Origin: Planctomycetota bacterium
Lineage (GTDB): Bacteria > Planctomycetota > MHYJ01 > JACQXL01 > JACQZI01
Length of the DNA: 53,034 nt
Assembly (NCBI GenBank): GCA_016207825.1
Contig: JACQZI010000037.1
Coordinates: 1-53,034, forward strand
Reading direction: 5' to 3'
The position numbers and the translations under genes were made by a program. Shown piece by piece: positions 4,799 to 48,765 of this stretch. Numbering within the stretch: position 1 is the first letter of the stretch; every line of letters starts with the position of its first letter. The notes beneath the pieces were generated by a model. That model worked only from the letters and a program-made list of their open reading frames with translations, made no database searches and had not been told where the DNA came from.

Positions 4799-4818
4799 TA
4801 AAAGGCGGTTATTTTTTA
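4776..4818 (+). terminator. Possible weak terminator after yhaM
   Basis: ACCGCC (4776-4781) can pair with GGCGGT (4804-4809), followed by TATTTTTTATTTT. The loop is long (22 nt) and the left arm lies inside the gene, so support is modest. It sits between convergent genes. Confidence 0.35.
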
Positions 4819-7197: not shown

Positions 7198-7202
7198 AAC
7201 GT

Positions 7203-22125: not shown

Positions 22126-22127
22126 AA

Positions 22128-22160
22128 AAAGGAAATTGCCACGAAGACACCAAGGCACGA
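22128..22160. repeat. CACGAAG-type intergenic repeat
   Basis: GCCACGAAGACACCAAGGC and ACGAAGAGAC words occupy the 41-base gap before nnrD. They belong to the same family as the repeats at 20359, 21291 and 25273. Confidence 0.45.
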
Positions 22161-22166
22161 AGAGAC

Positions 22167-25220: not shown

Positions 25221-25249
25221 CATCCAGTACATAATTTATGTGCTGGATG
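25221..25249. repeat. Long palindrome abutting the -24 element
   Basis: Arms CATCCAGTACATAA (25221-25234) and TTATGTGCTGGATG (25236-25249) pair over 14 bases with one G-T mismatch. The right arm ends on the first G of the -24 GG pair, so a protein bound here could block or position sigma-54 RNA polymerase. Confidence 0.65.
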
Positions 25250-25264
25250 GCACGCTTTTTGCTA
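25247..25264 (+). promoter_or_regulatory. Sigma-54 (-24/-12) promoter of the GxxExxY and giant surface genes
   Basis: TGGCACG (25248-25254), four bases, TTGCTA (25259-25264): an exact match to the TGGCACG-N4-TTGCW consensus with GG and GC ten bases apart. Transcription should start near 25275, before the GxxExxY ATG at 25322. Clustered inverted repeats lie 86-200 bases upstream. Confidence 0.85.
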
Positions 25265-25272
25265 TGTAAATC

Positions 25273-25290
25273 AACCACAAAGGCACGAAG
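25273..25290 (+). repeat. Left copy of an 18-bp inverted repeat (AACCACAAAGGCAC)
   Basis: AACCACAAAGGCACGAAG occurs in the 5' leader of the GxxExxY gene. A reverse-complement copy with 17 of 18 bases identical lies at 25805-25822 inside the giant gene. It belongs to the same word family as the CACGAAG intergenic repeats. Confidence 0.7.
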
Positions 25291-25321
25291 GGCACAAAGA
25301 TAAGATAAAATAAGGTGATTT

Positions 25322-25711
25322 ATGGATGAATTAGGGAAAAAAAGAAGCAATGAATTATCTAACAGGATAATCGGAGCGGGGATTGAGGTTCACCGCGTTC
25401 TTGGCCCAGGTTTATTAGAATCCGCTTATGAGGAGTGCCTTTGTTATGAGCTAAAGCAATCTAAGCTTTCATTTGAAAGACAGAAAGCTTTGCCGGTCAT
25501 ATACAAAGAAATTCATCTTGATTGCGGTTATCGCATTGATATTCTGGTGGAAAAACTGGTGATTATAGAATTAAAATCGGTCGAACAAATCGAACCGGTG
25601 CATGACGCCCAGTTATTGACTTATCTTAAACTATCCGGGTTATGGCTTGGATTGATAATAAACTTTAATGTCCCAATCCTAAAAGATGGGATTAAACGAG
25701 TAGTTAATTAG
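25322..25711 (+). CDS. GxxExxY protein
   Basis: 129 residues of the GxxExxY family, named for GLLESAY (near residue 36). Other conserved parts are [37 protein letters not shown] and [23 protein letters not shown]. The spaced Asp, then Glu-x-Lys (DILVE...IELKS) resembles the PD-(D/E)xK nuclease core, and the family is thought to belong to that fold, but no activity is established. It is the first gene after the sigma-54 promoter, nine bases before the first possible ATG of the giant gene. It is bracketed by an 18-bp inverted repeat. It may therefore be an inserted passenger and not an original operon member. Confidence 0.88.
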
Positions 25712-25732
25712 ATAATAAAAATGGAGAAATGT

Positions 25733-28700
25733 ATGTTGAGCGAAGCGAAATCCCGATTAGCATCGGGGCGGAAATCGAAACTGATTACTGGAATTCTTAG
25801 TGCTCTTTGTGCCTTTGTGGTTAGTCTCTCTCCCGTTTTTGCCTTTGAAAGCGAGCCGCCCCCGATTGTCAAAAAAGCGCAGTTTGAATCGGTCAAAGAC
25901 GGCGCCTGGAGTGACCAGAACACCTGGGACCCGATAGGCGTCCCGGATACCGGCGATACCGCAACGATAAAACATGCCGTAACGATTAATGGACCCGGCA
26001 CAACCAAGTGCGGTAATATTACGGTAAATGCCGGGAAAAGCCTGACTATCGTTGGTCCTGCAACTCTGGAAATTGATGACGGTTCCCAAGTTGTAAATAA
26101 TGGAACATTTACGGTAAACAGCGCCGGCGGCCTGGCTAAGCTGACCTCAGGCGGGACAGCCAGTTTTAGCGGGTCTGCCGCGACATGGGCTGGGAATAAC
26201 CTTGCCTTTACCAAATTTTCTTATCCCTTTGCCCTAGATACTACGGGTGTTACTTTTAGCGAAATAGGCACTCTTACTACCGGTGCGTTTACGGTTGGAA
26301 GCGCCGTTACCCTTAGCGGTAACCTTGCCTCAAGCGGATTGATTACGGTTAGCGCTAATTTAAATATCGGATTGAACACCTTAACCGCAGGCGCCGGCAT
26401 TACCATTACCGCCAGCACGCTTTCTGTCGCAAGCGGCGGGACGATTAATTGCAATGGTGGCAGTTTCGGATTCACTGCAAACTCTACCGCGCGTTTAACT
26501 TTAGCGCCCGGCAGCAAGGTTTACCTGAATCCGTCAGCCGACGGACAGTACGGATTTAACCTGGTAGACGGCGGCCAGATTTCCGCCACCGGGACAGCAG
26601 GCAACCTCGTAACAATCGCTTCTTCCACCGCGTATAAAACGTATATACTTTTAAAGAATACCGCGACGGCCGGCACGCCCGCGGCTTTATTCCAATACTG
26701 CGATATCACCGGTTGCGGAGTGTCTGTTACGGATAAATGGGGTATTACTGCCTATGATGTAAACGGTAATAACGATAGCGGCGTTGCCGCCCAGGGGTTG
26801 ACAGTTGACAACTGCCAAATCCATAACGGTAGCGCGTGGGCTGTGGTGCTTAATACCATTACCGGCGGATGCCTTAATAACCGCATTACCAATAACACCA
26901 TGTATAGCCTGTCCACCGGCGGTATTTATATCGGGCCGAATACTACAGGCAACAACGGCCACCTCATCGGAGGCAATACGATTTATAGCAGTAATTACGG
27001 GATGCAGTTTGTCGGCGCTAATGTTGCGGGGTCTTATTGCTTTAGTACGAACCCCATTACTAATACCACGATTTATAGTTGTGCCTATGGATTGTTCATT
27101 GACCGGGGTATTTGCGGAGGTTCGTATACGAACGAGCAAATCTTCCGTAATTGTAATTTCGGAACGTTGGGACAGAATACTACCGCGGATATCGGGTTTT
27201 TCTATTGGGCAGGCCGGACTATCCCCAACGCATTGCGCCTGGAAAATTGCATTCTGGCTTCACCGGTCGAAGTTGAAACAGCTAATATTCATGTTGCCAA
27301 CGACCGGATTGTTTCCTATAAGCACGACAGCGTTCCCGGTTTAGTCAGGGCTTGGGGCGATTGGCGCCCGCTTGGTGTTGCAGGCCAGGTGAAGGCCAGA
27401 TACGATACGGCCTTGGTTGCCGGAGTGACTAATGATGCCAATACCCAAAAGATAGTGGAGTTCGGGCCTTGTTCTACAACGATGGCTGCAATCGGGACCT
27501 TGCCTTACCAGATACCCGCCGGTAAAAGCCGTTTGAGGATTGACCCCAGCCAAAATGGCGGCGCATTGATAGAATTTGTCGGTATTACCACACCCAGCTG
27601 GGCGCCGGTCCTCGTTCGTTCTACCGGTGCGGACACCTACGGCATCCTCATAGAAGGCGGCGCCAATCCTAACCAGGGAAAATTCTCTGTATATGCAGTC
27701 GAATTCCAGAACTTGGTTACCGGCACGCTCATCTCATCTACAGGCAGTATCCCGAACGAAACGACCAACAACCTTCCGTCATTAGACTATTGCACATGGA
27801 AGAACAACACGGCCGGCACAACACATCTGGTATTAGCGGTTGGCGGTAATATTACCAGGACCGGTTGCTCCTTTGATACTTCTACGACATGGGATGTCCG
27901 GGTGGATAATACTACCAATATCACATTCACCAATTTTACCAATTCCCGCGCTAATACGGCTGATAACGAGGTTTCCGGAACAGTTACATGGTCCGGTGGC
28001 GGGACGACCTATTATGCGGTTGCTAATGGTGCTTGGAATAATGCTTTTACTTGGGATATAACTCCTGGCGGCGGCGGCGGATTTGGTCCGCCTACTATTA
28101 ACGATAATGTGGTTATTACTAACGTAACAGTAACAATTAGTTCTGCTCCTGGCACTGTTTCTTGTACAAACCTGACGGTTAGTAATACGGGGATACTGAT
28201 ATTCAATCCTTTAGCCGCGGCTCGTTCTTTAATTATTAAAAACGGGGGTATTATATCGAATACCGCTACGATTGATTTCCAGAGTAATACGAATCCTGTT
28301 ACCATCACGGCAGAAAGCCTGACTAATCCAAATAGGGTTATATATAAAGGCAATGATTTAACCTGGCTGGCCGGCTTGAACCTGACCTTTGCCGGTATGG
28401 ATTACCAGCGAGCGATGAACCCCTCGACGAATGTTAATATTACTTTTAGTAACAGCATGCAGACTCAGACTGTAACAATTATCAATGGCAGCACCTTAAA
28501 ACTGGATGGCAGCGGGACGGCTATTACCTGGACCGCGGCAGGGGATGTCGCGATTGGCTCGGCAGCCACTACAGGCCTTTTAGAGCTCCAGCCGGAGACC
28601 GCTCTTAAAATCCAATGCGCCTCTAACGGCCAATACGGCCTGATTGTGGATTCGCTCGGCACCCTGACCGCGACTGGAACTTCCACGGCAGACCGCGACT

Positions 28701-31700: not shown

Positions 31701-34700
31701 ATATTACTTTTACAAATCCGAGCCCGATTAACGTAAATTATCTTAAGGTTTTTAGCGGGCAGCAAAAAACCTTAAGCGGTATATCATTTGACGACAACAC
31801 GAGTAGTAAAGATGTTGAGGTCGGGTGGAACGGAATAACGCCGACACAACTGACTTTTATTGATTATACTAATACTAATGCCGGGACCAAAGATTTAGAA
31901 ACAGACGGTAGCCAGGCAATCTGGAAAAGCACGATAGCGCTTTTTAACGGGGCAACCCAAATCCCGGGAACCATCTATCAAGGCGATGCCAATGTCCCGA
32001 TGCTGAAATTTAATATTGCTCCTTCATTGCCCGCGGGAGTTGTTTGCAGTGAAACCCTGCTTACTTATGTCGCCGTGACGCTAACCGGCGCAGGCGCTTT
32101 TAGCGACTCAGATATTAGTGCCGTCAAGATATACCGGGACACTGATGGAAGTAATAATTTTGACGCAACCAAAGATCTACTGATTTCCAATCCTGTTTCC
32201 TTCACCAATTGGTATGTAAATATTCAGTTAATTCCGGCGCAGAATGTTCTTACCGCTAACAATAATACGTTCTTTGTGGTTTATGATATATCGAAAACGG
32301 CGAATTTAGTGCCTATTGGTGCGCGTTTGGTGGATAATAATTATTTTACAGTAAGCGCCCCCCATGATAAAGCGGCGATGGCAACGCTCTCCTCGGGCAA
32401 TACGGTACTTACCGTAGTTGATTGGAAATCCGACCTGCAATTAAGAAAGGATCCGGCTGGCGGATGGACAGGTAATGATATCTATACCATGGATGGGCAA
32501 AATCAGAGCATCATTAGCAACACAGATAATGCCAAAGTTGCCTCGTATTATATCAGGATACAGAACGACGGAGGTTCGCTCGGTGACTTTTCTGTTACCG
32601 GCGATGCCGGCTTGGCAGGACAATGGTGGGTTACTTATTACAGCACTATTAGCGGTGACATTACTTCCAGCATCACAGGTCCGGGTATTTTATTAAACTT
32701 AGCTGCCGGGGCAACCTGGGATTTTGCGGTTGGGGTGGAGCCACAAGGACAAGCCACCGCTTCCTCTAAAGAACTAAAGATTTGGTCCAGGCCTAAAAAT
32801 GATGCAACAACGACATTACAGGATTTGGTTAAATTTACTACCTATGTCTACCCGAATCGTGCGGATTTGGCAGTAAAGGCGCAGGGAGGTAGTTATTCTA
32901 CCGACGACACCTTTGACCCGCCTGCCGAACAGAAACTTTCCGCGACTATAAATAAGAACACCCTGGTGACTTACTATGTCCAGTTGCAAAACGATGGCAC
33001 CGGCAACGACCAGATAACTGTCACCGGGACATCCTCTGCTACGCTCGGAACCGGCTGGACGGTAAAATATTACGATTCCGGCAATACGGATATTACCACG
33101 AATATAACCAACGGCTTAGGTTGGCTTAGCCCGGTATTAACATCTACCGGCACGACCGAAATCCGCGTTGAGGCAACGGCTACCGATACCGCGGTTGCTG
33201 GCATATATACTATTACCGTGGGTGGAAAATGTTATAACGATGCCACAAAGACCGACCAGGTAAAAATAGCCCTAACGATTAATTCGACATACCGTTCGGA
33301 TGTCATGGTTAAGAAATCATCTGAAGCCGATGGTTTCTATCTCACGGACAACACTTACGAAACTATCCCCGCCGCCCAGATAAAAAACACCTCTATTGAT
33401 ATCGGCGGCATTACTTCATATTATATTAAGCTGCAAAACGACGGTAACGTTACTGACAACTTCACCATAACCGGCACCAACGCCGCCTTTGGCCAATCAG
33501 GGCCTGCCGCTACGTGGTGGGTGACGTATTACTATGGAACCGTTGATATTACCTCTGACGTAACTTCCAATAAATGGCTCTCTCCGCCGGTGACAGTGGG
33601 CGGCAATATTGTTTTAACCGCATATATATATAACCAGCTTGGGGCAAGCGGAAGTGCCAAGGAAGACTACCTTACCGCCATATCTTACAACGATTCCGCG
33701 AAGAAAGACGCGGTGAAAATGATAACTTCCTGCGGGCAGCTTTACCAGCCGGATCTCATGGTGTCCAAAGACGGGCTTCCTCCCTGGAATACGGATGAAG
33801 CATACGATACCTCTCTTACTCCCACGACTACCGCGCAGGTCATAACACAAACTGTTCCTTCCTATGTGTCGGTTCCTGACGCGGAAGTAACCTATTATAT
33901 CCAAATACAAAATGACAGTATTAACAACGATACTTATTCAATCACCGCGGCATCTCCAACCGGCGCCGCTACGGGTGCGGGATGGTTCATTACATATTAT
34001 GATTCTATTACCCGTGCTACGGATATCACCCCGATGATCATCGGGGCAGGCGGTTACGGCACCCCTATCCTTACTGCTAATGGCGGAGCTATTACCATGA
34101 CCGCCGTGATTGGATACGATTCTGCCCTAATCGGGCCGAATGTTACCAAAGACATATATATATATGTAAACTCGGGCGTTGATTTAGCGAAGCGCGATGT
34201 AGTAAAATGTGTCGTCAAAACCGCAAACTACCAGCCGGACCTTTATTCTTCGGCTACTATCGGCGGATTCCCCGGACCGTATAATAACGTCTATAATGCC
34301 AATCCGGCAACCCAGGCGCAGACCAAAATCGTTGATAACGGGATGACCGTTACTTATTATTATAAAATCCAGAACGACGGCAGTTATTCTACCGGAGGAT
34401 TATTGCCTTACTCAATAACCGGGAATGACGGCACCGTGGGCCCCTGGACGATTACTTACTATTATGATGGCGCCGTTACTCTTAACGATTTACCTGATGA
34501 CGGGGAAGAGATTGATATTACCGATGGATGGTCGGTCGGTAATTTCAACGTCGGCGAAACCAAACAGTTGATTGTCCTGATAAGTGCATCAGGCGCAGCA
34601 CGGGGTGCTACCCAGAATTTCGACCTATATGCCACGAGGCTTGAAACAGGCGAAACAGATACCGGAAGGATAACGGTCGAGGTTCCTTCGCCAGATTTAT

Positions 34701-37700: not shown

Positions 37701-40700
37701 TAACTGATTTGAACTATACAATAGTTCTTAATAGATATGGGCAGGCAGGCTCTCAGACAACCGATACGCAGATATGGATGGAAATGACGGCGCTTACTTA
37801 TACACCGGGTGCTGATATAAAAACCGCCAATATCTGGGCAACGCTCCAAAAAGGCACTGCCAATGAGAAATCAGATTTGGTTGTAGCCCAAGGGACGGTT
37901 AATAATATTTATCAGGCAGACGCCATGGTAAAATTAGAAGGTGAATTAGATGCCGAGTATTTCAGAAACGGTGTCCCACCGGAAAGCTGGGGCAATGTCA
38001 GTTACTACAACACTGTTCCTGCTACCGACCAGGTAAAAGGGAAATCTATAGATAATGGAACTTACGCCACCTATTATATCCGTGTTCAAAATGACGGCAA
38101 TACAGATGATACCATAAGTATAAGCGGGACCGGGACATGGGTAGGGCCTTACGCTTCATTAGATACTTGGGGAACGGTGACGTATTATGACGTAACAGGA
38201 GGCGAACCTGGTGCGGATATTACGCAGGCCGTTATCCAGGGACTTGGTGCGGCGCAATGGGCTCTTGTGAAATTTGAAGGAGATTATAAGCTTATTAAAG
38301 TAATCGTGCGTCCCTATGCCGGCCAGTCAGGGATCCGTAATGTATATGTTCAGGCAAACTCACTCGGCGGAGGAGCGGTTAAAACCGATGCCGTTAAAAC
38401 AATCAACCAATACCAAAATATATTCCAACCTGATTTATACGTTAAGGTTTCGAGTGGTTCGTATGTGCGCACCGGACCTCCATATTTTTCCGACCCGTCG
38501 CCGGATGACCAGTTTGCATCTGCTACCTTAAACAATCGTGGAGTGACTTACCCCAGCATAGTAACTTATTATATTACCCTGAAAAATGACGGCTCAACTA
38601 ATCCTGATACCATTACTATCAGACAGCTTAATACTGCGCCTGCCGGATGGTTTATATCATATTACGATCTTGCTTCCGGACTTGAATCGGAAATTCCCGG
38701 TACGCCTAATTATAGTATAACCACTGCAACAGGAGCAAATTACTCTATAAACACCAATGACACGAAACTATTCCGTTTAGTGGTAAGCATAGATAATTCC
38801 GTAGCCGGAACCGATACGTTTACCGCGGTAATCAAAGGAACTTCCAGTAATACCGCTTATTTCGACCAGGTAAACGCGCAAACATCTAATAGCGTTACCC
38901 GCCGGCCAGATATATGGTTATCAGATACTATAACATGGACAGGTGATACTGTTTATGAAACCTCGCTACCCGGAGATCCTGAATTACTCTCACAGAAACA
39001 ATACGCGACGCTTATGGGTATTGGGAGTGCCGCGACCTACTATGTCAAAATAGAAAACGATGGTAACTACACCGAAGGTATTTCATTATATGGTTATGGC
39101 GGTAACGCTAACTGGATAGTATCGTATTATTATGATACGGGTAAAGACGGTGTTTGGGACGGAACGGGGAGCGAAATAACCTCTCAGGTAACTAATGCCG
39201 GTTGGATGCCCTCGGTTGCTCCTTATACCACTGGTGATTACCAGCAAGTGTTTGTGGTCGTATCGCCCAACTTGACCAGCCTCCCGGCGAATAACTCTTC
39301 TTATATTGCAGTGGTAAATCTTAAAGCAGCGGGTGACGCGGCAAAACTGGATTATGGCATGGTTAAGACCACATTTAGCGCGATAATATATCAGCCGGAT
39401 ATTATGGTGCAAGAATCAGGAGGGAGTTCTTATTACGGAGACAATTATTACGACAGTTCTCTGCCGATTACCACGCAGGCAAGGTCCTTAACAGCTTACC
39501 GTGACTGCGCGGTTACTTATTATTTAAAGATCCAGAATGATGGAACCGTGGTTGATTCGTTCTCAATAACCGGTACAAGCGGAGACGCTAACTGGAGTAT
39601 CTATTATTACGTAGATAACGGAACTACCGGTGTTTATGAATCGGGTGTTGATACTAATATTACTTCCAGCGTTACAGGTACTGGTTACGCTTGGACCAAT
39701 GTAGCAAAAGATGATTATAGGTACCTGATTGTTAGGGTGTTCCCAAGATGGACGACTTCTTACAATGATACAAAAGATGTTTATATCTATGCGAATTCTA
39801 CCAACGTGACGACTTCTACCGATGTGGGATTAGTAACCACAACCGTAACAGCGGGTTATCAACCGGATACATGGGTAAGGACTTCTTCCGGAACGTATGA
39901 TGACCTTTGCGACTCCGGGCAACCCAGCAAAGACCGGTATGCCCTGCCTTCGTATGTAATTATACAACAGAGCTGGTTCGGAGTGGAACAAAAGAAAACC
40001 CAAACTATTACGGAATCAATCAGGACGGTTACGTATTATATCACTCTCGAAAACGATGGTAATACAGCAGATAGTTTCACTCTTTCCGCAACGGTTAACA
40101 CGGGACCTGATTGGTTTATCACGTATTATGATGAAGGTGCAGGCGGGGTTGTGATTCCCAATGCAAACCTGTCGAATGGCAGTTGGAGCGTGCCGGCTTT
40201 GCCTCGTGAAATAAGAGCGGAAATTACGGCTCGCAATGCATTGACTGGGACAAGTACGACTATTGCAACCATTCAATCGGGTTCTGTAAATGATACTTCT
40301 AAATATGATACAGTTAAGTGTCAGGTGGATGTCCAGGTTTTCTCCAAACCGAACGGCCTGGTAAAAGAAGATGGGGATGGGGTATATCTCGGAGATAGCG
40401 ATTATAATACCACGGCGCTAAACCAAACCAGAGGCCCTATCAGCGTAGCGAATTCGGCAACCGTGACATATTACGTGCAGGTTAGAAACGACGGTAACCT
40501 TATGGAAAGTTATTCAATCACTGCCGTAAGAACAACCGGTTGGTTCGTTACTTTCTATGATGATCCGGATGGTGATGATAATAACTTTGACGGTACAATA
40601 ATTAATTACACCGCTCCAACATTTACTTGGACTACCGGTAATATAGGTATCGGTTCTTCGAAGTATTTAAGGATAAACGTCACTCCAGATAACCAATACG

Positions 40701-43700
40701 GTTCTATCCCGCAGTATCTTTATGTCACCGCATCTTCTTCTGCAGCCGTAAACGATGTCGTAATGGCATGGACGGCAGTAAGCAACAGCAATAGACCGGA
40801 TACCTTGCTTACAAAGGAAGGATACGGTGATACATCGGTTAAAGAAACGTATCAGTATAATGATACATACTATCCGCCTGCCTGGCAGATTTCCACGACA
40901 TCCATTGCTAATAACCAGGTCCTTACATATTATATTTGGATAGAAAATGACGGTAATACTGATGAGACGTATCTGGTTACGGGAAGCTCGGCGTCCGCCG
41001 GTTGGTGGATTACTTATTATGAAGATGCAAGCGGAACAACGGATATTACCACAGAAGTTCAGAATGGTATATATAATGCGGGGAACCCGGCTAATTCAGA
41101 TAAGATGGAGCCATATTCCATAACAACTTGGAAACGTATTATTCGGATGGTGGTAGAAGCCGGAAATACGCTTAACGGAACTGACAGCGCAACTTATATC
41201 GTTAAGGCAACCGATTCAACCTTAGCAACGGATACGGTCGGAGTGACATTCACTGTAAATACTACATATAAAGTTAATACATCTATCGGCAGTATTTCCG
41301 GCGGTCCGTATACAGGGGAGGCGGTTTACACACCTCCGACGGCTTTAGACCCGAACCAGGCGGTTTCCCGAACAGCCAACACAAATAAAATAGTTACTTA
41401 TTATGTAAAAATCGTTAATGAGGCTAATGTAACCGATACGATTACTTTAGCCACCGCAGGTTCTGGCAGTGGATGGTGGATTACTTATTATGACCCGACC
41501 AGTGCAAATATTACCGCCAATATTACCAATCCGGTAACCGGATGGGCGACCTCCTTTACCCGTAACCAGGCCAAGGAAATCAGGATTGAAGTTACTCCCG
41601 ATGGTTCGGTAATAGGAACGGAGCTTTTGCCGATAACCATTACTGCAACGGCTTCCGGCGGTGCTGCATCCACGGATTCTGTTCTGGCTAAAGCTACGGC
41701 GCAAAGACCCGATGCCTTGCTTACAAAAGAAAGTTATGGGGATCCGAATCTTAAAGCCACTTATCAATATGATAATAGTTACGACCCGACATCCCAGATA
41801 ACCACGACTACAATTGCAAATAATGCCGCCCTTACGTATTATATCTGGCTGGAAAATGACGGAAATGCCAACGAAACAGCCTATGCCGTTACAGGCACGT
41901 CGTCCTATGGCGGATGGATTGTGTCTTATTATGATGGGGTAAGCGGAGAGGATGATAGTATTACCACCGCTGTTTCCCAGGGGACATTTAACCCCGGAAC
42001 GGTGGGCGTGATGGAGCCGTATTCTGTAACAGGATGGAAACGCATAATTCGTATGCGTGTAACAGCTACCAGTAATTTATCCGGCAGCGATACAGGCTCG
42101 TTTATTGTCCGCGTGACCAATTCCAGCAACAATACGGATACTGTTCAGGTGAATGCCACAGTGGCTACCACTTACCAGGTTAATACCGCCGTGAAGACGG
42201 AATCCGCCCCTTACGTAGGAGAAACCAAGTATACGCCTCCAGATGCATTGGACCCTGACCAGACCGTGACGAATACAGTTTCTACTAATTCTATTTTGAC
42301 ATATTACTTTAAGGTGGTTAATGAAGCCAACGTTACGGATACCATTTCGGTAACAGGTATTGGAAACAGCGCTGGATGGTGGGTAAGTTACTATATGGTG
42401 CCGGGAGGCGCGGATATTACCGCCAATATTACCAACCCGGCAACCGGATGGGCGACCTCCTTTACCCGTAACGAGATAAAAGAAGTCAAGATACTTGTCC
42501 AACCTGATAACACTCCCGATGGAGGTAATACCAAGGCGATAAGCGTTACCGCCTGGTCAACGCTTTCCGGTTTTAGCAAGTATGATTCCGTGTTAGCGAA
42601 GGCAATTATAGTGACGACGCGCAGGCCGGATCTTTTAATCAGTTTGGATAACAGCGTGTTTAGCGGCGACGGGGATTACGAGGATGAGATTCCGCCGATT
42701 TCCGCTAACCAAACTAAGCAAGGCTCGGCTAAAAACAATGAAGTAATTACTTATTATGTTAAATTACAGAATGATGGTAATTTAGGGGAAACATTTACCA
42801 TTTCTGCGACTTTACCCGGTAGCGGTTGGTTTATAACTTTCTACGATAATACAGATACCCAAAGGCTATTGCCCTGGGAAACCACCGGAGCTATAACTAA
42901 GACGGATTCTATCACAGTTAAGTTTTTAGTTATGCCAATCGGCAAAAATAATGGAGATAGCGGTGATTTGATTATCTACGCTAAATCGACTGCCGATACT
43001 GCCAGCGTGGATGCGGTGGATGCCAAAACAACGGTAAGCGCATCAGATATTTTATACCCACAGGATTATAAGCAGGTCGGTCCCACCCCGGTGTTTATGG
43101 GGTTGGCCGCTCCTTCTGTAACGGTTGAATTATGGGATATCACCGGCGGCCTGCCCGGGACTCAAGTTTTGACGACCACTTCCGATGCAAACGGTTATTG
43201 GATGATGAAAGTTACAGGTGCCTTAAGCGTAGGCGGCCATATCTTTAAACCGATTGCAGGCGGCGTGGAAGGCCAGCCCAGGCCGATTACTGTCGAAGCG
43301 GTCGCTCCGGCAACCGTCCCGTCGATAATTTCCCCGGTGGAAAATGAGTATATTGTTACGACAAACCGCCCTGATATATCAGGGAATGCCGGTGTCACTA
43401 ATGCCGGTCAGGCAATAACCGCTACGGTTAATATCAATACGACTGCCACACTTTTGTATGATATGAATATTGGTACGGCTTTTGTGCAGGCTGATGGTTC
43501 GTATACGATAAATCTTACTCAACCGTTGCCCAGAGGCACACGCCAGATCGCCCTGATTTGTAACGGCGTCGTGAGCGATTTAAGGACTATCATACTGGTT
43601 GACCCGATAGGTATCTTGTTTGATGAGCAAACCAACCAGCCTCTTGACGGCATGGAAGTAAGCTTGTGGCGTTCCACGACCGACGGAACATTCACCTGGG

Positions 43701-46700
43701 TGTTATGCCCGGTTGGCGGATTACCCGGTGAAATCGGCGGTCCGGTCGGCGTGACTAACCCGCAAACATCAGGCTGGACAGGTGTAACAGGCCAGTACCA
43801 GTTCCTCTTGAACCAGCCGGCAGTCGGCGTGGCGTATAATTACAAGATAATAGTTACGAATTCGTCCGGTTATACTTTCCCGGCAAGCCTGCCTGCTTAC
43901 CAGACGGCGACATCCACCATCATCGGTTCGGCAGGCACGGCAAGTATTCCGGCGTTTATTAACCTCTTCCCGGGGGACCCCGTGACCAGGACGATTTACG
44001 TTGACGATACGACTTTCTTAGGGGTGGCTCCATCCGTCGCGCGCAACTTGTCGGTCGGCGGTTATTTCGAAATGGATAATTCAGAACTTGATTTGATATA
44101 TGCGGATATTCCGCTGGCTCCTACCGCCACTCTCTTAAGGATTACCAAAGCATCGAACAAGCCCGATGTGTCTATCGGCGATATCCTGACGTATGAAATC
44201 AAGATTGTTAACAGCAATGCCTCGCCGGTTAAGAATGTTTATATCAGGGATATCATGCCGGCCGGCTTTAAATATATTGACGGTTCGACCATGATAGATA
44301 ATACAACCAAACTGGCTGACCCAACGGGCGGTCGGACAAGGATTTTCAATGTCGGAACAATCAATGCGAACTCAACGAAGATAATCAGGTATCAACTGGT
44401 AGTCGGTACGGCCGTTACCTTCGGTGAGTACAAAAATACCGCCCAGGCAGAATATGTCGGCGGGATGGTAATATCAAACAAAGCCCAGGTAAAGGTCAGG
44501 GTAATTCCCGATCCGGTATTCGATTACGCCACGATAATAGGTAAGGTGTTTAACGATTATAACGGTGATGGCGTCCAGGATGAAAACGAACCCGGTGTCG
44601 GTAGGGTAAAGATCATGACCGAAGACGGAATCGTGGTTGAAACCGACCAGCATGGTAAATATCACTTAGCCGGATTAAAACCCAAGACCAAGCTTTTAAA
44701 GGTGGATGAAAACTCATTGCCAATAGGGGCGGAATTTAGTACGCCTAACCCGGTATTGGTGCGCTTTACTTTAGGAGGCCACCTGGAAAAGGTTAATTTC
44801 GGATTAAAGCTTGCCCAGTCGGCTGAGTCGTTGGAAAGGCGTATTGTAAGGGTAAATATCAAGGTGGTAACCACACCCGAAGGAAATCCCCAGATATCGG
44901 TAGCCGGCCAGCAGGTAAGGATGATGTTCCCGCCGAAGAGCGAAGGGCGTACCGAACGCCGGGTGAGGGTGCAGGTCGGTTATACTATGCTGCCGCTTGA
45001 TGAAAATGGCAATTACAATGGTGATTACACACTGCCTCCGGGCGAGACTACCTTAAAGATCTGGGCGGAAAACAGGTGGGGATACGAGAAAGAAGAACGC
45101 CATTCGGTTTCCTTGCCTTCTCTTGAAGTCAAGGTCTACCGCGAGGATGACCGCCCCGCTTTAACACCTGAATTGGGATTGGTGGTAGCGCCGGAAATAT
45201 TAAACATAAAAGGCGGCCGCCTGGCAGAATCAGCCCGGTTCAAGATACTAACTAACTACAGCCAGTTTATCACTAAATGGAAACTGGTAATATATGAACC
45301 GGTGAGGGGCGGTGCTTGGATTCCCGAAGAAGATGACAAAGAAAATCTGGTGGCTTCCAGGGAAAATGGAGTGAAATCAGATACTTTAATCGCCGGGGAA
45401 TTCGGAGATGCAACTCCTCCTGCCGGATATCAGGTATTCTATGAAAAAACCGGGACAAGCGCAGATATCGAAAAAGATATCGTTTGGGAAGGTCGTTCTT
45501 CCATAGACCGGAACAGGATGGTCGAGCAGGATAAAGCTTATAAGTATAAGCTGATTGTGGAAGGCAAAGACGGTAATGTGGATATGACCAAAGACGGCCA
45601 GTTGATTGTGGTCTCCTTCTGGGCGGAAAAATTGAGGAAGACCTTTAAGATAGAAGCGCCGCTGGTCGGAGGGGTAAAACCCGTTCCGGCTATCGGGCCG
45701 ACGCCGGTCGCAAATATAAATACGTCCGGCAAGGTGTATTCAATCAGCGGTAAGACAGACCCCAAAAATAAGATTGCCATTTCGACCCCGGGTTCTAAGG
45801 CAGCCGGGTTTGAAGTCGAGCCGTTTGAAGACGGCACTTTCGAAACCGAAGTCTACGTTTCGGCGACCGAAGGCAGGATGTTGATAGAAGCCATTACGCC
45901 CGATAAACAGCGGCGCGTCCAGATGTCGGAAAATATCAAGGCGCCAGAAAAGAGGCAGGAAGGCTACTTAGTCCTGAACGGCTTAATTGATACCCAGTTC
46001 GGCAGTAATTCTACCTCCGGCGTCCTTGATGCCACCCGTAACGACAAGACCATGCGCGATGGCGCTTACGGGACAGGCAGGGCTTCGCTCTTCTTAAAAG
46101 CTCGCCTGGGCGAATACCAGCTGACTTCATCCTTTGACAGCCAGCGCGAAGAAAAGGATTTGTTCAAGTTCATAGACCCGGATAAGTTCTATCCGCTCTA
46201 TGGAGATGATTCTGTCCGGACCGACGTGGCGGATAATACCCAGGGCATGTTCTACGTCAGGGTGGAACGCGAACAGTCAAGCGCCATGTGGGGAAATTAC
46301 TCGACCGGCTTCAGCGGGACCGAATTGGCCCAGTATAACCGCGGATTCTACGGGGCAAAGATACAGTTAGCCAAGCCGTTCTTCTCCACTACCAAGGCGA
46401 CCTTGTTCGTGGCAGAAGCCAAACAATTGGCAAGCCATAACGAAATCCGGGCAACCGGCGGCTCATTATATTACTTGAAAGACAGGTACCTGATGGACGG
46501 CAGTGAAAAGATAACCGTTGAGGTGCGCGATAAAGTAAACGGCATGACAATCTCTTCCACCGTAATGAATGCCGGAGCGGATTATGAAATAGATTACAAG
46601 AACGGCCGTATTCTCTTCTACCACCCGATTGCTTCCGTCTCCACCAGCAACACGATAATTTCAACGGAACTCTTGGATGGTAATCCGGTGTATATCATAG

Positions 46701-48637
46701 TGGATTACGAATACGACGCCTCAAGGCACTCTACGAGGAACGCCACCGGCTTAAGGGTAACACAACCGGTCGGAAAAAATATCGATTTAGGCGCAACCTA
46801 TGTTACCGAGGAAAAACCGCTGGAGGATTACAGCTTGATGGGCACGGATGTTAAATTCAGGTTTGCCCCGTACGGGGATATAGGCTTTGAATACGCCTCG
46901 AGCGAATCGGAAAGCACCCCAGGGTTTATATCATATGACGGCGGTTTTGATTTCGCAACACTGCCTACCGCCCAGACAGCGGACGGCGCGGCTTATAAGC
47001 TGAACCTTAACTTTGACCTCGGCCTTGCATTTACCAAGGTGCCCAACGAAGTAATGTTTGCCGGATATTTCCAGAATATAGAAAAGGGATTCTCATCCGG
47101 ACAGAGCGTATTCCAGCAGGGCACGACCAAATTCGGGTTTACGACCTCGGCAAAACTCACCCAGCGGGATAACCTCCTGGTCAGGTTTGACGGCCAGCAG
47201 CTTGATGAAAACGGCAACACCGCTTCCGCTACCCAGGTCGGGGCGGATTCCAGCCAGTCCTTGAATATCCAGGTAACGCATGACCAGGCGCCGTTGAAGC
47301 TGACCGGTTCGTACCAGTATCAGACAACCGACAAACCGATATATAGTTCTCTCCTGCGCGATGAAGGCTCGCAGATATTGGCCGCACGGGCGGATTATCA
47401 GGTGAATAAGGAATGGACGCTGTCCGTTGAACAGCAGGGAGTGCTCGCCGGAAAACCCAATAACCAGACGACCCTGGGCGGCGTATTGAAGCTGACCGAA
47501 AAAGAGCGGATGGATATTTCCACCACCATGGGAACGCTCGGCAATTCGGTCCAGGCAGGGATAACCAGCCAGGTAAGCGACAAGCACGCGCTTTATACCA
47601 AGTATCAGGTGAGCGAAGATAAAGCCGGCAACAAATCTTATTCCACGATATTCGGGGAACGGAAACAGGTCTCTAAAGATGTCGGCATATACCGTGAAGA
47701 AAGATTCACCGGCAGGAATTCCGCCGAGGATACACAGTATACGGGTTTAATGGGATTGGATTATGTCCTGAACCAGTATTGGTCAATGGGCGCCAATTAC
47801 GAAAGAAGCCAGGTGGATAATGTCCACGGCACGCTAACCTCGCGCGATGTGGCATCCGTTGGGCTGGCTTATAACTCGCATCCGAGGGAAAAAGACCCCA
47901 GCGAGCTAAAAGGATATATGCGTTTCAACACCCGCCTGGAATACCGGATGGACAAAGGCGCTCCGGACAGAACTTCAATCCTGACCGCCAATAAGCTCTA
48001 TTACCAGTTTAACGGAGACGCCTCCAGCATCGTCAAGATGAATTACAGCAAGACCAATAACGATACGACCGGGGATGTGGAAGCGGAGTTCACGGAAGTG
48101 AGCCTGGGGCTGGCGTATCGCCCGATAAATAACGATAAATACAACCTGTTAACCAAGGTCACTTACCAGTCCGACCGCACGCCGAGGAACCTGGAGCCGA
48201 TGGTAAGCAATTTGGAAAGCGCGATGATACTCTCCCTGGAAGGCGCAGTGGATTTGAATGCCAAGATGCAGGTTTTAGGGAAGCTCGCGTATAAGCAGGC
48301 GACCGAAGAAACCGGCAACCACGGCTCATTGACGAGCTCCACCTACTTGATTGCGCCGCGCTTTAACTATAAGATAGAATCGGATAGCGAGATAATCAAT
48401 AACTGGATAGTCGGTGTCGAATACCGGATGCTCGTGGCACAGCTGGCAAAAGACCAGAAGGCCGGGTTTGTCCTGGAGTTTGAAAAGGAACTGACCAAGT
48501 ACCACAGCCCGGTCGGGCCGATGGGCGTCAACCTGGGATTCGGCTATAACTTCACCGATTTCACGGATGATTTATCGGTTTACGATGATGATTATAACGT
48601 GAGCGGGTTCTTTATCAGGTTAAGCACAAAGTTCTAA
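25733..48637 (+). CDS. Giant secreted surface protein with 23 Ig-like repeats and a C-terminal barrel-like domain
   Basis: One uninterrupted frame of about 7,634 residues. ATG 25733 is preferred to ATG 25721 because GGAG lies six bases upstream. A repeat-derived tail (about 1-16) precedes a signal peptide ending SPVFAFES. Three G8-like plus beta-helix units start near residues 54, 759 and 1442 (WSDQNTWD, WNNAFTWD, WHDGSTWN); a linker follows at about 2066-2230. Then come 23 tandem Ig-like repeats (about 2232-5771), each near 154 residues with PDxxV, YYxxxQNDGN, FTITG, WxVTYYD and a terminal NDxxKxDxVK. Next are Ig-like modules, a DUF11-type domain (about 6132-6265; GDILTYEIKIVNSNASPVKNV) and an SdrD-B-like domain (GKVFNDYNGDGVQDENEPG). 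The last about 890 residues alternate like outer-membrane beta strands, contain FYPLYGDDS, and end FFIRLSTKF with the terminal Phe of barrel proteins. It is probably a surface-displayed adhesin or stalk/coat protein; the ligand is unknown. It is the second gene behind a sigma-54 promoter and ends at a strong terminator. Confidence 0.9.
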   Translation: MLSEAKSRLASGRKSKLITGILSALCAFVVSLSPVFAFESEPPPIVKKAQFESVKDGAWSDQNTWDPIGVPDTGDTATIKHAVTINGPGTTKCGNITVNAGKSLTIVGPATLEIDDGSQVVNNGTFTVNSAGGLAKLTSGGTASFSGSAATWAGNNLAFTKFSYPFALDTTGVTFSEIGTLTTGAFTVGSAVTLSGNLASSGLITVSANLNIGLNTLTAGAGITITASTLSVASGGTINCNGGSFGFTANSTARLTLAPGSKVYLNPSADGQYGFNLVDGGQISATGTAGNLVTIASSTAYKTYILLKNTATAGTPAALFQYCDITGCGVSVTDKWGITAYDVNGNNDSGVAAQGLTVDNCQIHNGSAWAVVLNTITGGCLNNRITNNTMYSLSTGGIYIGPNTTGNNGHLIGGNTIYSSNYGMQFVGANVAGSYCFSTNPITNTTIYSCAYGLFIDRGICGGSYTNEQIFRNCNFGTLGQNTTADIGFFYWAGRTIPNALRLENCILASPVEVETANIHVANDRIVSYKHDSVPGLVRAWGDWRPLGVAGQVKARYDTALVAGVTNDANTQKIVEFGPCSTTMAAIGTLPYQIPAGKSRLRIDPSQNGGALIEFVGITTPSWAPVLVRSTGADTYGILIEGGANPNQGKFSVYAVEFQNLVTGTLISSTGSIPNETTNNLPSLDYCTWKNNTAGTTHLVLAVGGNITRTGCSFDTSTTWDVRVDNTTNITFTNFTNSRANTADNEVSGTVTWSGGGTTYYAVANGAWNNAFTWDITPGGGGGFGPPTINDNVVITNVTVTISSAPGTVSCTNLTVSNTGILIFNPLAAARSLIIKNGGIISNTATIDFQSNTNPVTITAESLTNPNRVIYKGNDLTWLAGLNLTFAGMDYQRAMNPSTNVNITFSNSMQTQTVTIINGSTLKLDGSGTAITWTAAGDVAIGSAATTGLLELQPETALKIQCASNGQYGLIVDSLGTLTATGTSTADRDCIITSASSFRSYIYLKPGSLSKFQYCNIYELGYAQGSPYTKEGIFVDAVKNQANDGFTVDGCDIHNNYQGIRASNITSTSIANSKIYNNSSRGIYFYSPNWDARSANNNISNTEIYNNPTGIEIVIDSSISIYNNTKVYNNTYGLIVRSVDPLTFDGGSIYGNTYGIEIQEWSSSDNFINVQFGTPVVNSVCDVNLNPGTTPTSNRINYFRNCLFNSATEFRWANPANVHVGFAAVSYKHDQVAGDIRIWGDYVKSAGTENWNYTNHGYTPVAPDAGQANTPKVVTFMPGASGLNGGTSRFRLDAAATLDMASGNTTPVNITSVKSSVAGVYYNMILSGTINANCYKFENLGYDAANSNYGLEIRSTAAQITSLNNGIYANCKADGQHLYFNNTAFGGNKTISGCSFDNSAWYDVWTNIGAAQYITFTNYSNDYAGTKDFEEQGYADWFTAGAWITVKDGNWHDGSTWNNASVPPDWNDVTINHTVNVTGTVKTGNIAINAGGLGLNGGPQAMTLQVLAGMTITNNASISVTDDTNTVELTSSGAGAPDYFILAGNNSLNLNGKDLTIGLVQVGTPITVPNLSVLTIDNDLRTITTTISDGGELKHQTAGKEWSATGNISVSGILRLGANTLTRINSLSSDGQYGLEVESTGYLEALGTSSASRDCIISNGGPGSYKLYLLLKNGSESKFQYATLCYIGTATDSNKRGIRASSVDGNVAGEGLTVDTCNIYGCYFAFYLSSCTYNTVKNNNIYDNSRGISVDGTTNNNTIDNNYVYSNTDNGVSFGWAGVNQTFTNMWISKNPVGISVGNGTPATTAYAVFINSVITNSSTADVVSYGGYVGAQRLTLQNCILGSTTEVQNTIDKTGDWVISQKHDQAAGTTVIWGDYSPAAGATLKFNYADESYTGAGDQNVQKTVLIGPSSIVAFGNRSRLQIPATSVLQMKGGVGLAQATLVSATAAAGYFYVIGVSGTIDANNVKISGPAVGGIYVPSTGTLADFNNITFTNPSPINVNYLKVFSGQQKTLSGISFDDNTSSKDVEVGWNGITPTQLTFIDYTNTNAGTKDLETDGSQAIWKSTIALFNGATQIPGTIYQGDANVPMLKFNIAPSLPAGVVCSETLLTYVAVTLTGAGAFSDSDISAVKIYRDTDGSNNFDATKDLLISNPVSFTNWYVNIQLIPAQNVLTANNNTFFVVYDISKTANLVPIGARLVDNNYFTVSAPHDKAAMATLSSGNTVLTVVDWKSDLQLRKDPAGGWTGNDIYTMDGQNQSIISNTDNAKVASYYIRIQNDGGSLGDFSVTGDAGLAGQWWVTYYSTISGDITSSITGPGILLNLAAGATWDFAVGVEPQGQATASSKELKIWSRPKNDATTTLQDLVKFTTYVYPNRADLAVKAQGGSYSTDDTFDPPAEQKLSATINKNTLVTYYVQLQNDGTGNDQITVTGTSSATLGTGWTVKYYDSGNTDITTNITNGLGWLSPVLTSTGTTEIRVEATATDTAVAGIYTITVGGKCYNDATKTDQVKIALTINSTYRSDVMVKKSSEADGFYLTDNTYETIPAAQIKNTSIDIGGITSYYIKLQNDGNVTDNFTITGTNAAFGQSGPAATWWVTYYYGTVDITSDVTSNKWLSPPVTVGGNIVLTAYIYNQLGASGSAKEDYLTAISYNDSAKKDAVKMITSCGQLYQPDLMVSKDGLPPWNTDEAYDTSLTPTTTAQVITQTVPSYVSVPDAEVTYYIQIQNDSINNDTYSITAASPTGAATGAGWFITYYDSITRATDITPMIIGAGGYGTPILTANGGAITMTAVIGYDSALIGPNVTKDIYIYVNSGVDLAKRDVVKCVVKTANYQPDLYSSATIGGFPGPYNNVYNANPATQAQTKIVDNGMTVTYYYKIQNDGSYSTGGLLPYSITGNDGTVGPWTITYYYDGAVTLNDLPDDGEEIDITDGWSVGNFNVGETKQLIVLISASGAARGATQNFDLYATRLETGETDTGRITVEVPSPDLWINRDNGVTWVGQDQYAPTAQVTSTLIAGSTVVTYYITLENEAALADSFSITANGSSGAGWFITYYDQAAAPGNNITGQITTPVTGWSPGSLNGGATGIMRVEVEYNAGVVPVNETKPITIYAFSIVGAPASLYDEVAGQTTSASYKPDILVKKAGEAYNFDNVYSSDSSVQNLQATVSNNQVATYYYQLQNDGTYTATSYSITGDDGNVGNWWVTYYIDPDGDDGELDGAQTSITTPGIATSAITPTGIAYLRANIYVNAFEPPGQNKIFKIYATKTDTGEVDSVQLTAQVPGTDAMVALDFDPLVTSSTWKTNNVYETAIPNSEQIVSRTIAANMVATYYIMIQNDGGALDTISVTGVSSADLGAGWWVTYYSSYDGAGDVTGQVTSAGGYPIINLAEGATSTMRCEVCYDNPVLTEQTKNIYIVTNSTTIVGSSDVVNAQILTANYKPDLLSKPAGGGYTGGDSYSSDPANLSQATNINNYQVLTYYYQLQNDGNYDSPGYTITADAGNIADKWFVTYYWGNTQVESENDANIIPAATITPTGWFSGVLNKGYSKILRVNLYVTNDSAAVAKTFKIWATKVDTGETDAGQIVATVTNSYTVDLMYQKASGGSYANTDNVYEPPATEDATQNQNIARAYPMIGTATYYIRIENEGNTDTVYTVTGIADEGSLTGSWTISCYNSTTVFNGTTDITADIAGGGWVTPSLERAALYGGASNWQDITVVTTPSMDITGNTTCTVIARVRYSDGGPADSIKLTSTMDAEYKPDAHISNGGAYTGDDVWNTDGSGANNQANTTNRNVAATYKVQVQNDGNINETFTLTGTSSATLGAGWTVSYYSDAGYLTDVTNQMVSTGHVTAVINLGAPGVPVEVLWIKVTPDDTVAGNTTVTATVTAISSNDSSEKDTVSMATTVNNAYQVDALINQSGWVGEDQYYPPTNQTASGAFTNRQTLTYYIKIQNEGNTNETITLTGVGSDSKWTISYYDNSGSGRTDISQGVITDLNYTIVLNRYGQAGSQTTDTQIWMEMTALTYTPGADIKTANIWATLQKGTANEKSDLVVAQGTVNNIYQADAMVKLEGELDAEYFRNGVPPESWGNVSYYNTVPATDQVKGKSIDNGTYATYYIRVQNDGNTDDTISISGTGTWVGPYASLDTWGTVTYYDVTGGEPGADITQAVIQGLGAAQWALVKFEGDYKLIKVIVRPYAGQSGIRNVYVQANSLGGGAVKTDAVKTINQYQNIFQPDLYVKVSSGSYVRTGPPYFSDPSPDDQFASATLNNRGVTYPSIVTYYITLKNDGSTNPDTITIRQLNTAPAGWFISYYDLASGLESEIPGTPNYSITTATGANYSINTNDTKLFRLVVSIDNSVAGTDTFTAVIKGTSSNTAYFDQVNAQTSNSVTRRPDIWLSDTITWTGDTVYETSLPGDPELLSQKQYATLMGIGSAATYYVKIENDGNYTEGISLYGYGGNANWIVSYYYDTGKDGVWDGTGSEITSQVTNAGWMPSVAPYTTGDYQQVFVVVSPNLTSLPANNSSYIAVVNLKAAGDAAKLDYGMVKTTFSAIIYQPDIMVQESGGSSYYGDNYYDSSLPITTQARSLTAYRDCAVTYYLKIQNDGTVVDSFSITGTSGDANWSIYYYVDNGTTGVYESGVDTNITSSVTGTGYAWTNVAKDDYRYLIVRVFPRWTTSYNDTKDVYIYANSTNVTTSTDVGLVTTTVTAGYQPDTWVRTSSGTYDDLCDSGQPSKDRYALPSYVIIQQSWFGVEQKKTQTITESIRTVTYYITLENDGNTADSFTLSATVNTGPDWFITYYDEGAGGVVIPNANLSNGSWSVPALPREIRAEITARNALTGTSTTIATIQSGSVNDTSKYDTVKCQVDVQVFSKPNGLVKEDGDGVYLGDSDYNTTALNQTRGPISVANSATVTYYVQVRNDGNLMESYSITAVRTTGWFVTFYDDPDGDDNNFDGTIINYTAPTFTWTTGNIGIGSSKYLRINVTPDNQYGSIPQYLYVTASSSAAVNDVVMAWTAVSNSNRPDTLLTKEGYGDTSVKETYQYNDTYYPPAWQISTTSIANNQVLTYYIWIENDGNTDETYLVTGSSASAGWWITYYEDASGTTDITTEVQNGIYNAGNPANSDKMEPYSITTWKRIIRMVVEAGNTLNGTDSATYIVKATDSTLATDTVGVTFTVNTTYKVNTSIGSISGGPYTGEAVYTPPTALDPNQAVSRTANTNKIVTYYVKIVNEANVTDTITLATAGSGSGWWITYYDPTSANITANITNPVTGWATSFTRNQAKEIRIEVTPDGSVIGTELLPITITATASGGAASTDSVLAKATAQRPDALLTKESYGDPNLKATYQYDNSYDPTSQITTTTIANNAALTYYIWLENDGNANETAYAVTGTSSYGGWIVSYYDGVSGEDDSITTAVSQGTFNPGTVGVMEPYSVTGWKRIIRMRVTATSNLSGSDTGSFIVRVTNSSNNTDTVQVNATVATTYQVNTAVKTESAPYVGETKYTPPDALDPDQTVTNTVSTNSILTYYFKVVNEANVTDTISVTGIGNSAGWWVSYYMVPGGADITANITNPATGWATSFTRNEIKEVKILVQPDNTPDGGNTKAISVTAWSTLSGFSKYDSVLAKAIIVTTRRPDLLISLDNSVFSGDGDYEDEIPPISANQTKQGSAKNNEVITYYVKLQNDGNLGETFTISATLPGSGWFITFYDNTDTQRLLPWETTGAITKTDSITVKFLVMPIGKNNGDSGDLIIYAKSTADTASVDAVDAKTTVSASDILYPQDYKQVGPTPVFMGLAAPSVTVELWDITGGLPGTQVLTTTSDANGYWMMKVTGALSVGGHIFKPIAGGVEGQPRPITVEAVAPATVPSIISPVENEYIVTTNRPDISGNAGVTNAGQAITATVNINTTATLLYDMNIGTAFVQADGSYTINLTQPLPRGTRQIALICNGVVSDLRTIILVDPIGILFDEQTNQPLDGMEVSLWRSTTDGTFTWVLCPVGGLPGEIGGPVGVTNPQTSGWTGVTGQYQFLLNQPAVGVAYNYKIIVTNSSGYTFPASLPAYQTATSTIIGSAGTASIPAFINLFPGDPVTRTIYVDDTTFLGVAPSVARNLSVGGYFEMDNSELDLIYADIPLAPTATLLRITKASNKPDVSIGDILTYEIKIVNSNASPVKNVYIRDIMPAGFKYIDGSTMIDNTTKLADPTGGRTRIFNVGTINANSTKIIRYQLVVGTAVTFGEYKNTAQAEYVGGMVISNKAQVKVRVIPDPVFDYATIIGKVFNDYNGDGVQDENEPGVGRVKIMTEDGIVVETDQHGKYHLAGLKPKTKLLKVDENSLPIGAEFSTPNPVLVRFTLGGHLEKVNFGLKLAQSAESLERRIVRVNIKVVTTPEGNPQISVAGQQVRMMFPPKSEGRTERRVRVQVGYTMLPLDENGNYNGDYTLPPGETTLKIWAENRWGYEKEERHSVSLPSLEVKVYREDDRPALTPELGLVVAPEILNIKGGRLAESARFKILTNYSQFITKWKLVIYEPVRGGAWIPEEDDKENLVASRENGVKSDTLIAGEFGDATPPAGYQVFYEKTGTSADIEKDIVWEGRSSIDRNRMVEQDKAYKYKLIVEGKDGNVDMTKDGQLIVVSFWAEKLRKTFKIEAPLVGGVKPVPAIGPTPVANINTSGKVYSISGKTDPKNKIAISTPGSKAAGFEVEPFEDGTFETEVYVSATEGRMLIEAITPDKQRRVQMSENIKAPEKRQEGYLVLNGLIDTQFGSNSTSGVLDATRNDKTMRDGAYGTGRASLFLKARLGEYQLTSSFDSQREEKDLFKFIDPDKFYPLYGDDSVRTDVADNTQGMFYVRVEREQSSAMWGNYSTGFSGTELAQYNRGFYGAKIQLAKPFFSTTKATLFVAEAKQLASHNEIRATGGSLYYLKDRYLMDGSEKITVEVRDKVNGMTISSTVMNAGADYEIDYKNGRILFYHPIASVSTSNTIISTELLDGNPVYIIVDYEYDASRHSTRNATGLRVTQPVGKNIDLGATYVTEEKPLEDYSLMGTDVKFRFAPYGDIGFEYASSESESTPGFISYDGGFDFATLPTAQTADGAAYKLNLNFDLGLAFTKVPNEVMFAGYFQNIEKGFSSGQSVFQQGTTKFGFTTSAKLTQRDNLLVRFDGQQLDENGNTASATQVGADSSQSLNIQVTHDQAPLKLTGSYQYQTTDKPIYSSLLRDEGSQILAARADYQVNKEWTLSVEQQGVLAGKPNNQTTLGGVLKLTEKERMDISTTMGTLGNSVQAGITSQVSDKHALYTKYQVSEDKAGNKSYSTIFGERKQVSKDVGIYREERFTGRNSAEDTQYTGLMGLDYVLNQYWSMGANYERSQVDNVHGTLTSRDVASVGLAYNSHPREKDPSELKGYMRFNTRLEYRMDKGAPDRTSILTANKLYYQFNGDASSIVKMNYSKTNNDTTGDVEAEFTEVSLGLAYRPINNDKYNLLTKVTYQSDRTPRNLEPMVSNLESAMILSLEGAVDLNAKMQVLGKLAYKQATEETGNHGSLTSSTYLIAPRFNYKIESDSEIINNWIVGVEYRMLVAQLAKDQKAGFVLEFEKELTKYHSPVGPMGVNLGFGYNFTDFTDDLSVYDDDYNVSGFFIRLSTKF
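25751..25768. repeat. CCCGAT hairpin repeat inside the giant gene start
   Basis: CCCGAT-TAGC-ATCGGG is read in frame as part of KSRLASGR directly after the start codon. The preceding GAGCGAAGCGAAA and the hairpin resemble the element at 20428-20512. Confidence 0.6.
25805..25822 (-). repeat. Right copy of the 18-bp inverted repeat, encoding signal-peptide core
   Basis: The reverse complement of 25273-25290 with one mismatch. Read on the plus strand it encodes exactly LCAFVV, the centre of the giant protein's signal peptide. Confidence 0.7.
32428..43045 (+). repeat. 23 tandem Ig-like coding repeats
   Basis: Twenty-three diverged units averaging about 460 bp were counted by the YYxxxQNDG-type motif. 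Higher-order structure is visible. Units 5, 7 and 9 share a KI(Y/W)ATKxDTGExD-like ending. Units 19-20 and 21-22 are a duplicated two-unit block: the DNA at 41511 and 42417 is nearly identical for about 60 bases, a 906-bp period. Confidence 0.85.
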
Positions 48638-48656: not shown

Positions 48657-48695
48657 AAAAGGGGAAGCGGAATAACGGCTCCGTTTCCCCTTTTT
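48657..48695 (+). terminator. Very strong intrinsic terminator after the giant gene
   Basis: Arms AAAAGGGGAAGCGGA (48657-48671) and TCCGTTTCCCCTTTT (48680-48694) pair over 15 bp with one G-U, with an 8-base loop and a T-run. It separates the sigma-54 transcript from the downstream regulator. Confidence 0.95.
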
Positions 48696-48729
48696 GTTTC
48701 ATATCCCTTGTTTCAAATATATTCTGAAC

Positions 48730-48758
48730 TTGACAAGCAATCTTTTTTCCTGTATAAC
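48730..48758 (+). promoter_or_regulatory. Near-consensus sigma-70 promoter of the TPR activator, apparently leaderless
   Basis: TTGACA (48730-48735), exactly 17 bases, TATAAC (48753-48758). Only seven bases separate the -10 box from ATG 48766, so the transcript should begin at the start codon. No Shine-Dalgarno is present. Confidence 0.75.
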
Positions 48759-48765
48759 CAATATC

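Follow-up and report, generated by a model that had tools for sequence, protein, structure and literature searches.

The giant gene of the window (the window being the whole stretch of 53,034 nucleotides analysed here, from a planctomycete genome of 2.89 Mb) is best regarded as a fused representative of an unnamed and widespread system of the outer membrane, where a long passenger precedes a C-terminal domain predicted to be an exceptionally large β-barrel. Relatives carry the same two parts either in one gene or in neighbouring genes, and literature searches found no description of this architecture.

A single 22.9-kb gene had been proposed in a first-pass annotation, and one uninterrupted open frame does run on the forward strand to 48637, from either 25721 or 25733 (Table 1). 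The ATG at 25733 fits better than the earlier start, because GGAGAA stands immediately 5' of it and a signal peptide, ending in SPVFA before FESEPPP, follows it. A genome of the same genus (G001) has a counterpart frame of 7,625 codons, whose layout is the same and whose signal peptide is clear. Amino acid identity between the two proteins is 71.6% overall and 91% in the barrel; dN/dS is 0.148 overall, 0.152 in the β-helix part, 0.137 in the Ig array and 0.079 in the barrel, ratios that are rough, as dS exceeds 1 across most of the gene. The counterpart and a dN/dS of about 0.15 indicate that the gene is real, and selection clearly maintains the whole giant protein. The stem 3' of the gene is suggestive only of a terminator. 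Directly 5' lies a gene for a GxxExxY protein (25322-25711), which was ruled out as a component; synteny with G001 stops at 22123, so that positions 22124-25720 were either inserted in the window genome or lost in G001. On the other side, a sigma-54 activator gene (48694-50760), whose product looks TPR-like in its N-terminal region, separates two giant genes; the second of these begins at 50959, encodes a large, glycine-rich secreted protein with no Pfam match, and runs off the contig end at 53034.

Table 1. Features of the giant gene and its 3' flank (window positions; residues are those of the protein that starts at 25733).
Feature	Position	Strand	Residues and details	Basis
Giant gene	25733..48637	+	7,634 aa; alternative start 25721 (7,638 aa)	ORF calls, same-genus counterpart
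Signal peptide	25733..25843	+	1-37; sequence MLSEAKSRLASGRKSKLITGILSALCAFVVSLSPVFA; same place in relative: MKNSALLLAFLAVIILIPSTVFA	
Three β-helix units	25901..32410	+	about 57-2226	PF13229 and PF05048 matches, anchors
23 Ig-like repeats	32411..43024	+	2227-5764; about 150 aa each	HMM built from the repeats
DUF11 domain	44135..44452	+	6135-6240	PF01345, E 1.7e-10
SdrD B-like domain	44543..44743	+	6271-6337	PF17210, E 6.9e-7
Connector	44744..45952	+	6338-6740; Ig-like modules	
Predicted C-terminal giant barrel domain	45953..48634	+	6741-7634, 894 aa; about 42 predicted strands	AlphaFold2, Foldseek, homologue replicate, co-evolution
Conserved 77-aa plug-like insert	46451..46681	+	barrel residues 167-243, between strands 8 and 9	short strands in both models
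Last predicted barrel strand	48593..48634	+	outer-membrane-type C-terminus ending GFFIRLSTKF	conserved in relatives
Terminator-like stem	48657..48694	+	3' of giant gene; about 0.7 expected by chance in that stretch	

The modular reading of the passenger in the first-pass annotation holds throughout. Pfam β-helix models match residues 992-1145 and 1706-1862, and three G-x-W-x-TW anchors, at residues 57, 766 and 1449, divide this part into three units of about 690 aa each. An HMM derived from the repeats finds exactly 23 strong copies of the Ig-like module, the number that had been counted, and Pfam confirms that DUF11 and SdrD-B-like modules stand ahead of the C-terminal domain. These module types are common in surface proteins. 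The passenger is rich in T, N, G and D, with K+R at about 5%; composition shifts sharply at the connector, where K+R reaches 14%. No OmpA domain is matched in the window protein, although one lies near the connector position in a third of the relatives.

Relatives confirmed in the genome collection number at least 543. Homologues occur in Planctomycetota, Omnitrophota, Nitrospirota, Desulfobacterota, Acidobacteriota and Pseudomonadota and, weakly, in Cyanobacteria (partial barrel matches in two cyanobacteria); plasmids of alpha-, beta- and gammaproteobacteria carry full-length homologues with 23-28% identity. Among sampled genomes, the barrel domain was found in 68 of 193 from the phylum of an Omnitrophota genome, 49 of 321 (15%) from the class of Colwellia, 19 of 199 from the phylum of an Acidobacteria genome and 19 of 198 from the phylum of a Nitrospirota genome. 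Of 392 Planctomycetota genomes, 11 have it, mainly those of the order to which the window belongs, and this patchiness within the phylum suggests horizontal gain or loss. RefSeq names the homologues TonB-dependent receptor, OmpA family or hypothetical protein. The first-pass annotation had called for a profile search for the C-terminal domain and its usual N-terminal partners; the partners found in the family include DUF11, SdrD_B, OmpA, PQQ/NHL, PKD and Fn3 domains. Other members have passengers unlike that of the window protein (PQQ/NHL propellers, PKD, Fn3, DUF11 arrays), and lengths reach 11,777 aa in a gammaproteobacterial open frame (L325/L326, G702:C2, about 428662-463992), where at least 38 stretches of DUF11 and an OmpA domain accompany the barrel, which is at the end. 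In several members, mostly from Omnitrophota (L030, L032-L037, L044 and L077), about 120-140 aa extend beyond the barrel, and the visible ends of several look helical; directly 5' of one Omnitrophota barrel gene is a gene (L030:4953-6884) with a weak match to a C-terminal H-type lectin domain.

The window's own genome contains further copies or pieces that share the DUF11-SdrD_B-barrel tail and carry other passengers (PQQ-type β-propellers, PKD, Fn3), and such interchangeable passengers on a constant tail are a point in favour of coupling between passenger and barrel. One paralogue, on contig C8 (L104:1226-9906), was considered as separate genes for a 1,852-aa passenger and a 1,047-aa barrel; this was rejected, as the two frames overlap by 22 bases and are broken within a single DUF11 domain, which looks like a frameshift. 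Three barrel genes are cut at contig ends (L004, L005 and L006, on contigs C12, C33 and C17): C12 and C33 stop at the identical barrel position with identical terminal residues, and part of a barrel C-terminus is found at the end of C17, which suggests that recently duplicated tails broke the assembly. Directly 5' of three other barrel genes of this genome are related genes for a secreted protein or lipoprotein of about 250 aa that has no Pfam match (L105:12090-12857, L106:7780-8514 and L107:9654-10481); it was rejected as a needed partner, being absent at the window copy.

Passenger and barrel are fused in Brocadiia, Omnitrophota, Nitrospirota and Acidobacteriota. In Sinorhizobium meliloti, Pelagibacterium and Eleftheria, a separate giant gene of DUF11 or SdrD type is directly upstream of the barrel gene, with an overlap of 4 bases in the first two. 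The giant gene likewise stands directly upstream of the barrel gene in Kangiella, Colwellia, Cocleimonas and Leucothrix, where the barrel proteins have their own signal peptides; the giant partners of Kangiella and Colwellia have OmpA as their last domain. The order is the opposite in all five short-form Omnitrophota (L060, L076, L080, L099 and L103), with the partner gene downstream of the barrel gene; these partners form one shared family, NHL and SdrD_B domains being found in L076 and L103 and the rest being homologous at 40-50% identity. Since the split pairs together hold the domains of the fused form, Rosetta-stone reasoning argues that passenger and barrel act together, and the adjacent separate genes in Proteobacteria and some Omnitrophota indicate that the window gene joins the two parts of such a system. 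Self-display by one gene would thus be only one of the forms of this family. At two loci from other lineages (L050:12601-15766 and L092:12484-15649), the next genes after the barrel gene encode a Glucodextran_B protein, which is FecR-like in L092, and a HAMP histidine kinase; through these neighbours the family may be linked to signalling.

The predicted fold of the C-terminal 894 residues is a β-barrel of the outer membrane with about 42 strands, or, as a careful range, 36-42. The first-pass annotation had described a domain of about 890 residues, unusually large if it were one barrel, and had proposed strand counting on a predicted structure; neither a soluble fold nor a small barrel came out. 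AlphaFold2, with an alignment of 75 relatives, gives a nearly all-β chain (pLDDT 84.6, pTM 0.81) with 42 barrel-length strands and the 77-residue insert, and the Colwellia polaris homologue, about 30% identical, is predicted with 42 strands in that order and with this insert too (pLDDT 83.5, pTM 0.76). The two predictions have independent targets but, with most alignment rows in common, not independent data. Foldseek against the PDB returns outer-membrane barrels for the Colwellia polaris model and nearly nothing else among the top matches of the window domain, led by SlpA, SprA, FimD, MtrB and LptD. Co-evolution among 235 sequences (Neff 188) indicates antiparallel pairing of successive strands with a mean z of 4.2, and about 35 of the 41 neighbour-strand pairs exceed the 95% level of non-neighbour pairs. 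The domain has the antiparallel amphipathic strands and the C-terminal aromatic β-signal (FIRLSTKF) of outer-membrane barrels in general; hydrophobicity alternates in many strands and exceeds the 95% null in only 15 of the 41 strands of at least 8 aa. The first third, the insert and the C-terminal strand are the best-conserved regions. Searches of Pfam, NCBIfam and PDB sequences assigned no known barrel family beyond marginal OMP_b-brl, DUF2490 and chitoporin matches.

AlphaFold2 could have forced a large β-sheet protein into a barrel, the true fold being open or multi-domain, possibly with two barrels. Such a fold could account for the first-last strand pair (1-42) having a non-significant z of 1.1 in the co-evolution analysis, which was run with 75, 168 and 235 sequences, for the weak pairing signal at strands 8-10, and for TM-scores to known barrels of only about 0.2. 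Scores of this size are as expected if no solved barrel matches the size of the domain, and the confident models for two distant members, the outer-membrane-type C-terminus and the nature of the Foldseek matches make this reading very improbable. The barrel is presumed to be closed between first and last strands.

For the preferred reading, a one-piece version of a two-part cell-envelope system, the following arrangement is proposed. The barrel would be inserted in the outer membrane through its C-terminal β-signal; the N- and C-terminal ends of the barrel domain would both face the periplasm, and the small conserved insert would act as a plug. OmpA domains bind peptidoglycan, and such a domain is N-terminal to the barrel in 26 of 78 proteins and after it in none of them. 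Of 77 pre-barrel regions, 27 have it between passenger and barrel. A periplasmic location of the connector is therefore probable. The N-terminal 5,700-6,300 residues, with the β-helices and Ig-like repeats, would leave through the barrel as a long passenger and stand outside as a fibre, probably an adhesin or coat, held by the barrel in the fused form or by OmpA on the cell wall in the split form. We infer exposure outside the cell from the length of the passenger, the types of its modules and the sharp compositional shift where it meets the connector; passage through the barrel and adhesion are presumed, and self-display by the window protein is plausible. The chance that a giant barrel exports its passenger in this way, as an anchored surface fibre, is judged to be about even.

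The proposal is weakened by the OmpA domains before the barrel and the partners that end in OmpA, as they fit a periplasmic passenger equally. The barrel might then be an outer-membrane anchor for a passenger that remains periplasmic and serves to connect the outer membrane with the cell wall or to set the distance between them, as a coiled coil and SLH domain do in SlpA and OmpM; SlpA, which connects outer membrane and peptidoglycan, is the top Foldseek match, and Planctomycetes can have a wide periplasm. However, 23 Ig domains and three β-helices are far longer than the width of an ordinary periplasm, partners of about 3,000 aa exist in ordinary Gammaproteobacteria, and the window protein combines the absence of OmpA with modules typical of extracellular proteins; a periplasmic tether or scaffold is therefore regarded as possible and somewhat doubtful. 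A role of the barrel mainly as an export or uptake channel, with the attached domains as accessory receptors, sensors or ligand-binding parts, would agree with the RefSeq label of TonB-dependent receptor on several relatives and with the FecR-like/Glucodextran_B and histidine kinase genes at the two loci noted above; it is improbable, given passengers that vary freely in kind and length and the lack of any match to TonB-receptor plug or barrel models.

Comparison with known systems sets the anchored-fibre reading in context. The window protein is not a classical autotransporter. The likeness that the first-pass annotation had seen survives in the order of signal peptide, passenger and C-terminal barrel, which is that of type Va, but not in the barrel itself: type Va barrels have 12 strands in about 300 aa, Pfam finds no Autotransporter domain (PF03797) in the window protein, and, unlike type Va proteins, a third of its relatives carry a peptidoglycan-binding domain before the barrel. 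In inverse autotransporters (intimin) the passenger is C-terminal to the barrel, whereas here the barrel is itself C-terminal. The split relatives resemble two-partner secretion (TpsA/TpsB) in having a large β-rich exoprotein and a barrel as adjacent genes, which are fused in the window; unlike TpsA/TpsB, the barrel is more than twice as large and some giant partners have a peptidoglycan-binding domain, and Pfam matches neither POTRA nor a ShlB/FhaC-type barrel in the barrel proteins scanned. FimD/PapC ushers (24 strands) also have a small plug-type domain inserted between barrel strands and are among the top Foldseek matches, and the window domain has no match to the usher family. No member scanned matches the plug (PF07715) or 22-strand barrel (PF00593) of TonB-dependent receptors.

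Likeness in size leads to other proteins. SlpA of Deinococcus radiodurans (PDB 7zgx/8ae1/8agd) is likewise a very large single-chain barrel at the C-terminus of a long envelope protein; unlike the window protein it has 30 strands, with SLH and a coiled coil in place of a β-helix, Ig or DUF11 passenger, and the two have no sequence match. The SLH domain that precedes the barrel in SlpA and OmpM is not matched in the window protein, and a peptidoglycan-binding part in that position exists as OmpA in a third of the relatives and is absent here. SprA, the type IX translocon, is a giant single-chain barrel linked to the export of large surface proteins; in the present family, unlike SprA, passengers are fused to the barrel or encoded beside it, and the window domain has neither a Pfam nor a PDB sequence match to SprA. 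The SprA barrel has 36 strands (PMC9581022), and the nearest precedent in size is a set of three Deinococcus radiodurans proteins predicted with 38-strand barrels (PMC9388160), so that the window barrel is predicted to exceed any solved single-chain barrel. No autotransporter, two-partner, usher, SprA or TonB-receptor model is matched. The architecture, which the first-pass annotation suspected might define a different kind of self-display, is not unique to this gene and belongs to a widespread family that includes two-gene pairs. It is tentatively suggested that such barrels, which would be the largest known for a single chain, export or thread giant multi-domain proteins that are kept in the envelope by OmpA or by fusion; this secretion and display class would be distinct from types V and IX.

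A barrel of about 42 strands made by a single chain would exceed both SprA and the predicted Deinococcus barrels, and would raise the questions of how the BAM machinery folds such a barrel and how its lumen is sealed. The family is common, being present in about a third of sampled Omnitrophota and 15% of the Colwellia class sample, it has no family model, and databases list its members as "TonB-dependent receptor", "OmpA family" or "DUF11" protein. That the same two parts are fused or neighbouring in several phyla suggests an undescribed way of holding giant proteins at the cell surface. Through the two gene arrangements, fused and split, a specific partner in the outer membrane can be assigned to many giant DUF11/SdrD proteins that are orphans in Gram-negative bacteria, and the export and anchoring of these proteins become testable in cultured Colwellia, Leucothrix and Sinorhizobium.
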